From Mucilaginibacter rubeus (lineage in GTDB: Bacteria; Bacteroidota; Bacteroidia; Sphingobacteriales; Sphingobacteriaceae): a stretch of 64,000 bases of DNA. The DNA lies in NCBI RefSeq assembly GCF_014643835.1, contig NZ_BMKD01000011.1:1-64000 (forward strand), in the 5' to 3' direction. The notes under the pieces were generated by a model, which was not told where the DNA came from, did not search any database, and saw only the letters and a list, made by a program, of their open reading frames with translations. The translations under genes and the position numbers were made by a program. This document shows, piece by piece, positions 35,994-38,744 of the stretch (the first letter of the stretch is position 1; each line of letters begins with the position of its first letter).

Positions 35994-36013
35994 AGTATCG
36001 AAGCACTAATATT

Positions 36014-36147
36014 TATGTCATTGCGAGGCGCGAAGCAATTAGTCTTACCCAACCCCGTCCAGAGGAGAGGATTTTAAGTGCTTTTTAAATCTTCCTTTCC
36101 GTAGGAGATTTAGAGGGGCTAATTGCTCTCTTCCTTATAATGACATA
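36014..36147. repeat. 134-bp foldback element in the trpC-trpG gap
   Basis: The outer ends are inverted: TATGTCAT (36014-36021) with ATGACATA (36140-36147), and GCAATTAG (36035-36042) with CTAATTGC (36119-36126). The 13-nt spacers between the two paired blocks are equal in length but unpaired. The left arm contains the widespread intergenic word ATTGCGAGGCGCGAAGCAAT, also seen in reverse orientation near 59341. Confidence 0.7.
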
Positions 36148-36199
36148 GTTGTAAGCTATTGGTTAATAAGTGTATTTTTCAATCAATTTTATAACATGT

Positions 36200-36296
36200 G
36201 CGTTGCCTGCGGCCCGGGCTTTTTGTTACAAGTCCTCGCTTTTCCTGCCCCCAATCCCAACCCGCGCTGTGGGCTTTTCACTGCAATCCCTAACGC
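36200..36296 (-). repeat. Dispersed intergenic element, copy 3 (variant)
   Basis: On the minus strand it begins GCGTTAGGGATTGCAG and ends GGGCCGCAGGCAACGC, matching the ends of copies 1 and 2, while the centre differs and is longer (97 bp in all). GCGTT at one end pairs with AACGC at the other. Confidence 0.65.
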
Positions 36297-36331
36297 GGCC
36301 ACCGCGCACCGCTAAGTGTCCTGCTCTCCGC

Positions 36332-36353
36332 GAGAGACCCTGCGGGGACGTTA
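36332..36353 (+). repeat. GAGAGACCCTG motif, copy 1
   Basis: GAGAGACCCTG followed by CGGGGACGTTA recurs as GAGAGACCCTG-ATGGAACGTTA at 59035-59056. In both places it lies next to a copy of the dispersed element. Confidence 0.55.
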
Positions 36354-36388
36354 TATCAATTTTTCAAAGTTATCATTATTTCATAAAA

Positions 36389-37009
36389 CTAAGCCTTAAG
36401 CCAGTTTTGCATCATTTCCTTACCATAATCGGTGAGGATTGATTCGGGGTGAAATTGTACGCCCCTTACATCGTATTGTTTATGCTTAAGCGCCATGATA
36501 GAATTATCGGCTTCATCAATAGCGGTAACCTGCAATGAATCGGGCAGGTCATTCCCGCTCACTACCCATGAGTGGTAACGCCCAACTTTAAAGCTTTCGG
36601 GCAAACCGGCAAATAGTTTTTCATCGCCATCTGTCACCTTTATCGGCGTCGCGATACCATGCATAGGCTGGTTAAGATTGTACAGGCTCCCGCCAAATGC
36701 TTCGGCAATAGCCTGCTGACCAAGACATACCCCAAATATGCTTTTGGTGGGTGCATACTTTGCTATTACATCCAGCAGCAAACCAGCCTCCGAAGGGATG
36801 CCCGGCCCCGGCGATAGGATGATCTTATCAAAAGCCTCCACATCCTCAATGGCAAACTGATCATTTCTCCAAACCTCACATTCCAGACCAAGCTCGTTAA
36901 CCAAATGCACCAGGTTATAGGTAAAGGAATCGTAATTATCGATTATCAGGATGCGCCCCCCCCGCCCCCTAAAGGGGGTGCTTGAAGGAGTATTTATATT
37001 TTCATTCAT
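36389..37009 (-). CDS. trpG: Anthranilate synthase component II (glutamine amidotransferase)
   Basis: TrpG supplies ammonia from glutamine to TrpE for anthranilate formation, and may also serve aminodeoxychorismate synthase. The class-I amidotransferase core is complete: LIIDNYDSFTYNLVHL, SPGPGIP, FGVCLGQQAIAEAFGG (catalytic Cys), RYHSWVV, and VQFHPESILTDYG (His/Glu). Homologues usually start at M-x-ILIIDNYDSF. Here no start codon exists near that point, and the frame begins 18 residues upstream with NENINTPSSTPFRGRGG, encoded by a C/G-rich palindromic repeat (36965-36978). So a repeat has become the N-terminus. The gene lies 77 bp after trpE. Confidence 0.93.
   Translation of the reverse strand: MNENINTPSSTPFRGRGGRILIIDNYDSFTYNLVHLVNELGLECEVWRNDQFAIEDVEAFDKIILSPGPGIPSEAGLLLDVIAKYAPTKSIFGVCLGQQAIAEAFGGSLYNLNQPMHGIATPIKVTDGDEKLFAGLPESFKVGRYHSWVVSGNDLPDSLQVTAIDEADNSIMALKHKQYDVRGVQFHPESILTDYGKEMMQNWLKA
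36965..36978. repeat. CCCCCTAAAGGGGG palindrome inside the trpG start
   Basis: The 14-bp palindrome lies in the coding sequence of the extra N-terminal residues of TrpG. A sister palindrome, CCCCCTTTAGGGGG, is at 37059-37072 between trpE and trpG. Confidence 0.7.
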
Positions 37010-37058
37010 TGTATTATATGTCTTAAAAACTATCAAATTTAAATTATCCGCTATAATT

Positions 37059-37086: not shown

Positions 37087-38496
37087 TTACAGCTCCTCCG
37101 CCAGTTCAAAAGCCCTTCTCAAAGCCGAGATCTTGGTATCAACCTCCCGTAATTCACTTTCGGGGATCGAACCAGCCACGATGCCGGCACCTGCCTGATA
37201 ATGCAGGGTGTTATTTTTGCTTAAAAACGAACGGATCATGATGGCATGGTTAAAATCTCCGTTAAAACCCAGAAAACCTATCGCACCACTGTAAAAGCTG
37301 CGTTTAATGTTTTCGTTTTCATCGATGATCTCCATGGCACGGTATTTTGGAGCGCCGCTCAGCGTGCCCGCCGGGTAAGTATCAGCTACAACTTTAAAGG
37401 CCGATACACCGGGCTTCAGTTTTCCGCTTACGTGTGATACCAAATGGATCAGGTGCGAGTAGTACTGAACCTCTTTAAATGCCTTCACGGTTACATTTTC
37501 GCAGTGACGGCTCAGGTCGTTACGGGCCAGGTCAACCAGCATCACGTGTTCTGCCGATTCTTTGGGGTCATTCTCGAGGTTGCGGGCCAGCTCGGCATCG
37601 CGCTCATCATCACCGCTGCGTTTAAATGTTCCGGCTATCGGGAATATGTTGGCCACATTATTTTTTATGGTGATCTGCGCTTCGGGCGATGAGCCAAAGA
37701 TCCTGAAATCGCCAAAATCAAAATAGAAGAGGTATGGTGATGGGTTGATAGAACGCAGGGCGCGGTAAACGTTAAACTCATCGCCCAGGAAAGTACGGGA
37801 GAAAGCCCTTGAAGGCACTATCTGGAAAACATCGCCCCGATAAATGTGCTGCTTCATTTTCTCCACTATGGCAATGAACTCATCGCCGGTAAGGTTCGAT
37901 TTTTCATCGCCATTGCTTTTAAAGCTATACTCGGGGAAGTTTTTGTTTTTGATGAGGTATTCCAGTTTTTCGATACCGCCATTGGTTGGTGCACCTTCGG
38001 GCTGATTATGAAATATGTAAAGTTCATTTTTAAAGTGATCGATAGCGATGATGTACCTGTAAATATGGTACTGCATCACCGGGATCTGGCGTGTAGCATC
38101 ATCGCTTTGCTTTAGTTTAATGGTTTCATAATGTTCAACAGCCTCGTGGGTAAAGTAACCAAACAAGCCATTGGTGATCATTTTTAGCGGCAGCGAGTCG
38201 GTTTCAAAGCTACCGGTAAAATTGTTAAGCTGTTCAATCAAATCAAACGTACCAGCCTCATGTACTTCCTGGCTGCCATCGGGATATTGTTTTTTTAGGA
38301 TCCCGTTATTGAGCACGATGCCGCTGAGCGGTTCGCAGCAAATGTAGCTGGTGCTGTTTTCGCGGCTGTGATAATCCGAGCTTTCCAGCAGCAGCGAGTT
38401 AGGGAATACATCGCGCAGGCGAAGGTAAATACTCACCGGTGTGGTGGTGTCGGCCAGCAGCTTTTTATAGGTGGTAGTGATTTTAAATGTGCTCAT
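37087..38496 (-). CDS. trpE: Anthranilate synthase component I
   Basis: TrpE converts chorismate to anthranilate using ammonia from TrpG, the first committed step of tryptophan synthesis. The N-terminal LLESSDYHS carries the LLES motif of the tryptophan feedback site. The catalytic half shows FQIVPSRAFSR, YLFYFDFGDFRIFGSSPEAQ, IAGTFKRSGDD, HVMLVDLARNDL, YPAGTLSGAPKYRAMEIID and AGAGIVAGSIPESE. Length (469 aa) is normal. The start lies 25 nt after the T tract of an attenuator terminator, so expression is likely set by charged tRNA-Trp as well as by feedback inhibition. Confidence 0.95.
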   Translation of the reverse strand: MSTFKITTTYKKLLADTTTPVSIYLRLRDVFPNSLLLESSDYHSRENSTSYICCEPLSGIVLNNGILKKQYPDGSQEVHEAGTFDLIEQLNNFTGSFETDSLPLKMITNGLFGYFTHEAVEHYETIKLKQSDDATRQIPVMQYHIYRYIIAIDHFKNELYIFHNQPEGAPTNGGIEKLEYLIKNKNFPEYSFKSNGDEKSNLTGDEFIAIVEKMKQHIYRGDVFQIVPSRAFSRTFLGDEFNVYRALRSINPSPYLFYFDFGDFRIFGSSPEAQITIKNNVANIFPIAGTFKRSGDDERDAELARNLENDPKESAEHVMLVDLARNDLSRHCENVTVKAFKEVQYYSHLIHLVSHVSGKLKPGVSAFKVVADTYPAGTLSGAPKYRAMEIIDENENIKRSFYSGAIGFLGFNGDFNHAIMIRSFLSKNNTLHYQAGAGIVAGSIPESELREVDTKISALRRAFELAEEL

Positions 38497-38521
38497 GTTT
38501 ATTTTTCAAATATCTTAAAAC

Positions 38522-38554
38522 AAAAAAACCCGGCGAATTGGGGTCGCCGGGTTT
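38522..38554 (-). terminator. trp attenuator terminator
   Basis: On the minus strand an 11-bp perfect stem (AAACCCGGCGA with TCGCCGGGTTT, 38544-38554 and 38526-38536) with a 7-nt loop runs into seven T residues. It lies between the leader peptide stop (38591) and the trpE ATG (38496), the position expected of an attenuator. The upstream leader segment AATTGG-CA-GCCGG (about 38603-38615) can pair with CCAATT and CCGGC of this hairpin, forming an alternative antiterminator. Confidence 0.85.
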
Positions 38555-38590
38555 CCTATTTAGGTTCACAATTGATTAGGTTGTCTCTGA

Positions 38591-38659
38591 TCAAAAAGCG
38601 CAAGCCGGCTGCCAATTTAATTGGTGCCACCAGCTGTTTTTATGTGTGTTTTTAATCAT
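38591..38659 (-). CDS. trpL: trp operon leader peptide
   Basis: This 22-codon frame starts ATG ATT AAA AAC and contains SWWHQLNW, with Trp codons at positions 10, 11 and 16 (two adjacent). It ends with TGA at 38591. It lies 8 nt after a TAAATTTG -7 box and upstream of the terminator before trpE. The codons after the Trp pair (AAT TGG CAG CCG G) are the same bases that could form the antiterminator. A ribosome stalled at Trp10/11 for lack of charged tRNA-Trp would leave that segment free and let RNA polymerase reach trpE. The peptide probably has no function of its own. Confidence 0.85.
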   Translation of the reverse strand: MIKNTHKNSWWHQLNWQPACAF

Positions 38660-38667
38660 CGCGGTCA

Positions 38668-38697
38668 CAAATTTATAAAGAAATTTGAATTGTCAAA
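38668..38697 (-). promoter_or_regulatory. trp operon promoter
   Basis: On the minus strand TTTG (38694-38697), an 18-nt spacer and TAAATTTG (38668-38675) match the Bacteroidota promoter consensus TTTG-N19-TAnnTTTG. Transcription would start within a few bases of the leader peptide ATG at 38659. Confidence 0.75.
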
Positions 38698-38744
38698 TTT
38701 TTTGTGAAATTATTTATTTGCTAAATCCTATTAGCTACGTAGAA

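Follow-up and report, generated by a model that had tools for sequence, protein, structure and literature searches.

In the trp attenuator of Escherichia coli (trpL; RF00513), tandem Trp codons lie within a short leader open reading frame (ORF), the leader transcript can fold into the stems 1:2, 2:3 and 3:4, and a terminator stands before trpE. Within the Bacteroidota, the Bacteroid-trp RNA (RF01692) is entered as a probable RNA and a probable cis-regulator in table 1 of PMC2864571. Of 296 genomes examined in the phylum, 29 gave matches to this RNA (27 above the cut-off), 27 of the 29 falling in a single family, f26, and because 12 of the 29 loci (minus-strand loci not turned round) carry a leader ORF with three adjacent Trp codons, such as ...NNTWWWNNLRQTS, the Rfam family seems to represent leader-peptide attenuators of this type. 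Upstream of amino-acid operons, strong clues for attenuation by leader peptides are likewise reported by the authors of a transcriptomic study of Flavobacterium psychrophilum (PMC9723704), which belongs to another family, although the words trpE and tryptophan are absent from the main text of that report. With this Rfam family and the flavobacterial data, attenuation in Bacteroidota is not new as an idea; an earlier, sequence-only reading of this DNA had also mentioned predicted cases in the phylum. Leader peptides read from about the first nucleotide are described for the leaderless trpL of Sinorhizobium meliloti (PMC7298713) and for Streptomyces lividans (PMC8079986); the terminated S. meliloti leader, moreover, acts in trans and so provides a Sinorhizobium precedent for attenuator RNAs with a trans function (PMC7298713).

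The window considered here, that is, the whole analysed stretch of 64,000 nucleotides of Mucilaginibacter rubeus DNA, carries on its minus strand a trpE-trpG-trpC operon that is almost certainly under ribosome-mediated transcription attenuation. The sequence-only reading had proposed a classical attenuator of this type, and the proposal is supported by adjacent Trp codons (WW) in 80/80 near relatives, by constant spacing, and by covariation of stem 1:2 and of the antiterminator. The leader is a branch of this kind of control that Rfam does not list, and what is new in it is an element predicted to be complementary to the open stretch of an RNA gene that is conserved, present in several copies and tailed by a terminator; the earlier reading, whose attenuator parts were recovered, had not foreseen this element. 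Taken as a whole, the locus is likely to be explained by an attenuator together with pairing in trans between the element and the small RNA (sRNA). Its parts, in the direction of transcription, are as follows.

38668..38697, minus strand: promoter of the sigma-ABfr type, with -33 TTTG (38694-38697), an 18-nt spacer and -7 TAAATTTG (38668-38675), read from the sequence and near relatives
38660..38667, minus strand: 8-nt gap from the -7 box to the leader ATG, with a predicted 5' UTR of 3-4 nt (spacing in relatives and the start-site rule of PMC6847099)
38591..38659, minus strand: leader peptide ORF MIKNTHKNSWWHQLNWQPACAF with stop, 22 codons, ATG at 38659 and TGA ending at 38591
38627..38632, minus strand: tandem Trp codons 10-11, the presumed stall site, within the 5' arm of stem 1:2
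38603..38635, minus strand: stem 1:2, AGCUGGU/GCCGGCU below and CCAAU/AUUGG above, -12.9 kcal/mol
38605..38617, minus strand: antiterminator segment 2, AATTGGCAGCCGG, with GCCGG in 75/80 near relatives
38558..38579, minus strand: element CTAATCAATTGTGAACCTAAAT, able to pair along 22 nt (G-U included) with the sRNA core ATTTAGGTTTATAATTGGTTAG, in a predicted duplex of -27.3 kcal/mol for the window leader
38536..38550, minus strand: antiterminator segment 3, CCGGCGACCCCAATT, comprising the terminator 5' arm and loop (swap test on 77 other leaders)
38522..38553, minus strand: intrinsic terminator, 10-pair stem 38544-38553/38527-38536 with T tract (RNAalifold on 70 leaders)
37087..38496, minus strand: presumed trpE, taken to encode anthranilate synthase component I, ATG at 38496; best 80 relatives 79-100% identical
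36389..37036, minus strand: next operon gene, taken from sequence features to be trpG; order common to L031 and L049
35211..35993, minus strand: third gene, likewise taken to be trpC; order common to L031 and L049

The window comes from a Mucilaginibacter close to M. gossypii, its TrpE being 100% identical (rounded) to that of strain Gh-67. No ORF of the size of trpD lies between trpG and trpC (35994-36388), nor in the corresponding place in L031 and L049; in the window this gap holds repeat-like DNA, including TTGCTTCGCGCCTCGCAATGAC, which resembles pieces near trpE in genus g26. The near relatives are the best 80 of 233 trpE relatives from a genome scan, 74 titled Mucilaginibacter and six Bacteroidetes MAGs (L051, L075, L079, L084, L101 and L105), and the full set of 80 underlies the counts of sRNA pairing, duplex energy and spacing, the 1:2 swap and the tree described below. 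The family sample outside Mucilaginibacter comprises 41 loci from 14 genera, taken among the matches listed; with Mucilaginibacter it covers 15 of the 21 genera with a family trpE match among those listed (g163, g166, g167, g168, g172 and g175 being left out). Outside the family, 59 of 67 trpE matches were fetched, the other eight being dropped for genomes already in the RF01692 set (five, of f26), short upstream DNA (two) or a truncated gene (one).

A leader ORF, defined by an ATG, 8-40 codons and adjacent Trp codons, lies upstream of trpE in all of the near relatives (best 80 of 233), whereas by chance one turns up in 0.44% of dinucleotide shuffles, and of 2050 control windows drawn from these loci 9 contain one. 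With the same definition applied within 350 nt of trpE, such leaders occur in 28/41 loci of other Sphingobacteriaceae and 37/59 loci of other families in the class, against 0.6% of shuffles in each case, and when W-x-W is also allowed the counts rise to 37/41 and 44/59. Leader-peptide control of trp is in this way extended from a mainly flavobacterial Rfam family to the Sphingobacteriaceae and to further families of the class. Compared with the known families themselves, the leader scores 16.8 bits against Trp_leader (RF00513), below the gathering score of 41, and gives no match to RF01692 at E up to 10 (gathering 49 bits), a family that is likewise without a match in G001. None of 23 loose Rfam matches to the leader exceeds its own gathering score; the best, STnc180 (6.5e-05, 33.1 bits, gathering 50), was put down to an A/T-rich stretch and a terminator in common, and was set aside. 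The locus differs from E. coli trpL in its Bacteroidota promoter, its predicted near lack of a 5' UTR and its additional sRNA-complementary element.

The promoter that the sequence-only reading had placed upstream of the leader on the minus strand is present and constant in near relatives, a TAnnTTTG box occurring in 79/80 and TTTG 18 nt ahead of it in 78/80. The spacing of 8 nt between the -7 box and the leader ATG, also noted in that reading, is exactly 8 in 57 of the 80 and lies between 7 and 10 nt in 78, and on account of this short distance translation of the leader is probably almost leaderless. In Flavobacterium johnsoniae many start sites lie 4 or 5 nt past the -7 box, as inferred by the authors of PMC6847099, and application of that rule would leave 3-4 nt of 5' UTR at the window leader; the leaderless translation suspected earlier fits this rule, with a start site that is itself deduced from the spacing. 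Such 5' UTRs are rare in the phylum: those below 10 nt make up about 3.7% in Bacteroides thetaiotaomicron (PMC7366714), and the leaderless share in F. psychrophilum is 5.5% (PMC9723704). The box lies 5-8 nt ahead of an ATG in 31/37 leaders of other Sphingobacteriaceae (six without a box by pattern) and 4-10 nt ahead in 21/43 leaders of other families (15 without a box), distances that lean towards short values since, among in-frame ATGs, the one closest to the box was used. Among leaders of f26, the RF01692-type L111 has 17 nt between the -7 box and ATG, unlike the present leader, and L219 has 7. The S. meliloti and S. lividans leaders differ in belonging to other phyla, while here the start is predicted and the spacing is conserved over the genus and much of the family. 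As Bacteroidota mRNAs are described as lacking Shine-Dalgarno sequences (PMC6847099), a start so near the promoter bears on how the ribosomes of this phylum load on a regulatory leader.

The leader had been read as 22 codons with Trp at positions 10, 11 and 16, all of which are present in the window, and conservation in relatives separates the tandem pair from the third. WW stands at codons 10-11 in 76/80 near relatives, and WWH also occurs in 76/80, whereas 54/80 leaders have only two Trp, so that Trp16 is not a conserved feature. The stretch in which it lies, TTGGCAGCCGG, is preserved as nucleotides and is read in three frames among the 80 (by text patterns, 43 LAAG-like, 24 WQP-like and 10 GSR-like, with 3 unassigned), and Trp16 is lost because the nucleotides are kept and the reading frame is not. 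This is how segment 2 of an attenuator should look, with selection apparently acting on the RNA and not on the peptide. In genus g161, the three leaders L140-L142 have a lone Trp where the stall site usually lies, no adjacent Trp codons, and the sRNA element.

The leader transcript (38510-38664) folds at -43.3 kcal/mol, as compared to a mean of -30.8 (sd 3.65) for 200 shuffles, none of which was as good (z -3.4). Its terminator, predicted earlier as a G/C-rich hairpin with seven U just upstream of trpE, holds up as a stem of 10 pairs and -17.3 kcal/mol followed by seven T at 38522-38528. An unbroken terminator stem was found in 69/80 near relatives by a strict detector, which detected none in the other 11, and a loose terminator pattern fits 77/80. 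The antiterminator formed by AATTGGCAGCCGG and CCGGCGACCCCAATT reaches -13.9 kcal/mol as a duplex and -10.4 as a hairpin with a 54-nt loop, and on these values is weaker than the terminator. The alignment of leaders (A1; 70 rows out of 81, near-duplicates removed by eye) led RNAalifold to recover the terminator with 12 predicted pairs, of which 4 show two-sided changes in at least one row; stems 1:2 and 2:3 were not recovered from these 70 leaders, the MAFFT alignment being out of register there. Since the arms of 1:2 change and the MAFFT gaps shift, a half-swap test was used for this stem instead.

The CCAATT/AATTGG pairing that the sequence-only reading had offered as a third hairpin is present, but its lower part had been missed: it stacks on AGCUGGU:GCCGGCU, which closes stem 1:2. 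The upper helix varies on both sides among near relatives (CCAAU/AUUGG, CUAUGU/ACAUGG, CUAUAC/GUAUGG, CUUAC/GUAAG, CCUUA/UAAGG, CCGUG/CAUGG and others) and keeps a mean of 4.53 pairs over 38 distinct segments, where swapping the 3' halves gives 3.54 (sd 0.16; at most 3.97 in 500 runs); in two of the 80 the helix is down to 2 pairs and in four to 3. Many stem pairs are invariant within the genus and thus uninformative for covariation, and the mutual exclusion of antiterminator and terminator, also claimed earlier, finds its covariation in other genera and families. From 180 loci, 18 were dropped for want of a Trp-cluster leader and 16 for want of an unbroken terminator stem (own detector), which left 146, among them 77 from outside Mucilaginibacter. 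In these 77 leaders segments 2 and 3 pair with a mean of -12.69 kcal/mol, as against -9.83 with swapped partners (sd 0.27; best of 300 swaps -10.58); the figures are -13.08 against -11.59 (best -12.86) for 36 leaders of the family and -12.34 against -9.71 (best -11.04) for 41 of other families. The leader L157 is illustrative, having CAGG in segment 2 and CCTG (5') and CAGG (3') in its terminator arms, whereas several other members of its genus carry CCGG in each of these positions.

In the proposed mechanism, RNA polymerase would start 3-4 nt ahead of the leader AUG and a ribosome would load on the almost leaderless mRNA. When charged tRNA-Trp is plentiful, the ribosome would pass both Trp codons to the stop and cover segment 2, allowing the 3:4 terminator to form; when it is short, the ribosome would stall on UGG-UGG, releasing segment 2 from stem 1:2 to form 2:3 and prevent the terminator. 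The loop that separates segments 2 and 3 would additionally hold the 19-22 nt sRNA site in loci of the Mucilaginibacter type and in one other genus; where the leader stop is close to this site, a ribosome halted there would hide part of it. The element most probably pairs in trans, and it may thereby make the terminated leader a sponge, or an sRNA bound in the antiterminator loop may favour termination.

The element appears as a near-invariant consensus, CTAAYCAATTRTAAACCTR, ahead of the terminator and common to near-relative leaders. At least 18 of its 22 positions pair with the sRNA core in 80/80 near relatives, and all 22 in 26 of them, where 200 shuffled cores gave a mean of 15.5 paired positions and at most 17.55 (a control on 20 of the 80 leaders). 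Duplex energies range from -20.3 to -32.8 kcal/mol (mean -27.3), as compared to a mean of -13.4 (sd 2.5) for shuffled leaders, the lowest of 400 of which, at -21.9, overlaps the weakest real duplex. A T-to-A mismatch lies inside the site in 16/80. Beyond the genus, all three g161 leaders pair with the sRNA at -24.2 to -28.1 kcal/mol, and the other 38 of the 41 family leaders give -10.1 to -19.7, within the shuffle range, when the Mucilaginibacter sRNA sequence is used; the pairing element was thus seen in loci of the Mucilaginibacter type and in a single other genus, and not elsewhere. On the trpE tree, 33 changes fall in a 19-nt core of the element that was trimmed after inspecting the variation, of which 26 preserve pairing (C or U facing G, A or G facing U) and 6 disrupt it, where random placement would keep 18.1 (p 0.0004). 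The three positions beyond the core underwent 29 changes, with pairing kept in 3, broken in 21 and restored in 4, and over all 22 positions 29 of 62 changes keep pairing and 27 break it; in the flanks there are 3 to 19 changes per position. Because the sRNA core is invariant, double compensatory changes are absent. The comparison with shuffles and the pattern of substitutions suggest that the pairing of leader element and sRNA is probably real.

The partner came to light when the element consensus minus its first base was searched in 12 genomes with up to 2 mismatches, giving 7-25 sites per genome as against 2-8 for the reversed pattern, with an exact 18-mer, TAACCAATTATAAACCTA, recurring. Eighteen of 19 fetched exact sites are the opposite strand of a conserved RNA gene, which would be transcribed against the element and consists of CTTCTCATAATTTAGGTTTATAATTGGTTAG, then a hairpin whose loop resembles GCCCATC, and lastly a T run; the remaining site (L244) lies upstream of an ORF that we take to resemble an outer-membrane receptor. 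Copies of the gene were seen in the genomes of relatives, and with up to 3 mismatches it is present in 52/52 Mucilaginibacter genomes (1-4 copies), in 3/3 g161 genomes, and in 151/251 genomes and 14/25 genera of the family, at up to 31 copies per genome, the reversed-pattern control being 0 in all rows. It recalls the FopS sRNA of Bacteroides (RF04319; PMC11697453), also described with an open 5' stretch, a terminator and paralogues, but the one copy compared (L240) is a weak look-alike at 17.3 bits (E 0.76-2.4; gathering 56), and a scan of seven sRNA loci gave no Rfam family over threshold.

What the match is for can be weighed against several readings. Some other form of trp control, be it a T-box, a riboswitch, TRAP or a repressor site, is highly improbable: no supporting point was found, and a scan of the window for RNA families, at Rfam gathering thresholds, returned no match. 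That the locus is a plain attenuator in which CTAAYCAATTRTAAACCTR is kept for another reason, such as polymerase pausing, protein binding or an open antiterminator loop, with the sRNA match of no use, is unlikely. Attenuation requires nothing further, the leaders of other genera, g161 apart, lack the match, and part of the output shows an A-rich stretch at the element's place in other genera too; yet a match of 19-22 nt to an RNA gene that these genomes themselves conserve goes far beyond shuffles, and substitutions within the core, trimmed as it was after inspection, favour those neutral to pairing.

If the pairing is real, the sRNA might be the regulator, its binding in the 2:3 loop disfavouring the antiterminator and lowering trpE whatever the Trp supply, a reading that is possible but rather doubtful. 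Consistent with it, the site lies past the Trp codons and ahead of the terminator stem in 80/80 near relatives, and the open 5' stretch and terminator are as in FopS, which represses its targets (PMC11697453). Its spacing, however, is tied to the terminator, whose stem begins 6-10 nt past the element in 80/80, and not to the leader stop, from which it lies -4 to 18 nt away, and other candidate sites also precede terminators (three ssb loci and one dnaA-like 3' end); both points fit a sponge as well. The converse, that the terminated leader is the regulator, a sponge made when Trp is plentiful that titrates the sRNA in the manner of S. meliloti rnTrpL, is entertained tentatively, at somewhat less than even confidence. 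The constant spacing of element and terminator argues mildly for a sponge-like 3' module, the site is mostly unpaired in the predicted fold (0.68 against 0.42 average unpaired), and a trans-acting trp attenuator RNA has a precedent (PMC7298713), whereas 1-4 sRNA copies per Mucilaginibacter genome may be hard to titrate. Under a two-way scheme, put forward with similar reserve, the terminated leader RNA would soak up the FopS-like sRNA or be switched by it, so that Trp status would feed the sRNA network of the whole cell by way of a nearly leaderless attenuator. The preferred reading, an attenuator with trans pairing, raises the question of an attenuator talking in trans to a paralogous sRNA family and suggests two layers of control in one switch. 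Literature searches not aimed at exactly this question yielded no report of a trans-acting attenuator RNA in Bacteroidota, and we know of none.

The sRNA family shows several further features. One copy, at L240:1287-1359 (plus strand), comprises the open stretch CTTCTCATAATTTAGGTTTATAATTGGTTAG and a terminator, and others were noted in L241, L242, L245-L247, L250-L253, L259, L260, L262, L263, L265, L267, L268 and L271-L302, several stand-alone copies sharing an upstream motif like TAGTGTTACTTTTACAC. In L241, L252, L283, L286 and L302 a tRNA-like gene lies directly ahead of the sRNA core, and some other copies stand alone; in the four that were folded it measures 111-113 nt, with a T-arm GGTTCGA and pairing ends, and it holds ACACCTCCTTGTC, which we take to read like the anti-Shine-Dalgarno of 16S rRNA. 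ARAGORN reported no tRNA in L241 or L252, Rfam gave nothing at E 1 in L241, and no counterpart of a tRNA-like RNA ahead of sRNA copies was found in the literature. Upstream of trpE and in the same orientation, at distances of 0.7 to about 11 kb, a match to the sRNA core also lies in G360 (C124), G387 (C8), G428 (C70), G434 (C18), G399 (C26) and G393 (C17), genomes of g168, g27, g176 and g165. For the leader motif of genus g26, AGGTTTAGGTTGATA, the complement (1 mismatch) occurs 8 times as against 0 reversed in G557 and 4 against 1 in G137, and 2-3 times against 1-3 in the other four g26 genomes, the counts in all six including the leaders' own opposite strand.

A G-U-degenerate complement of the 19-nt sRNA core gave 38 sites in eight genomes (20 sRNA genes, 4 trp leaders and 14 others), as against 11 for the reversed control, in a scan that is not fully blind to trp since the trp element had set the length of 19. 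When the sRNA genes are put aside, no site is found in more genomes than the trp leader (4/8), followed by the 3' end of ssb (3/8), and genomic context was read for 11 of the 14 other sites. Three of these lie at the 3' end of a gene taken to be ssb (L304, L307 and L308, about 1500), where the letters differ and the pairing is kept. A complement of the core also lies at the 3' end of a presumably dnaA-like gene (L255); in all four loci it overlaps the stop codon or falls within the 3' UTR, with a terminator a short way downstream. In L270 the complement, TAACCAATTATAAACATG, overlaps the start codon of a gene that we assume to be CoA-transferase-like, a candidate target of the sRNA.
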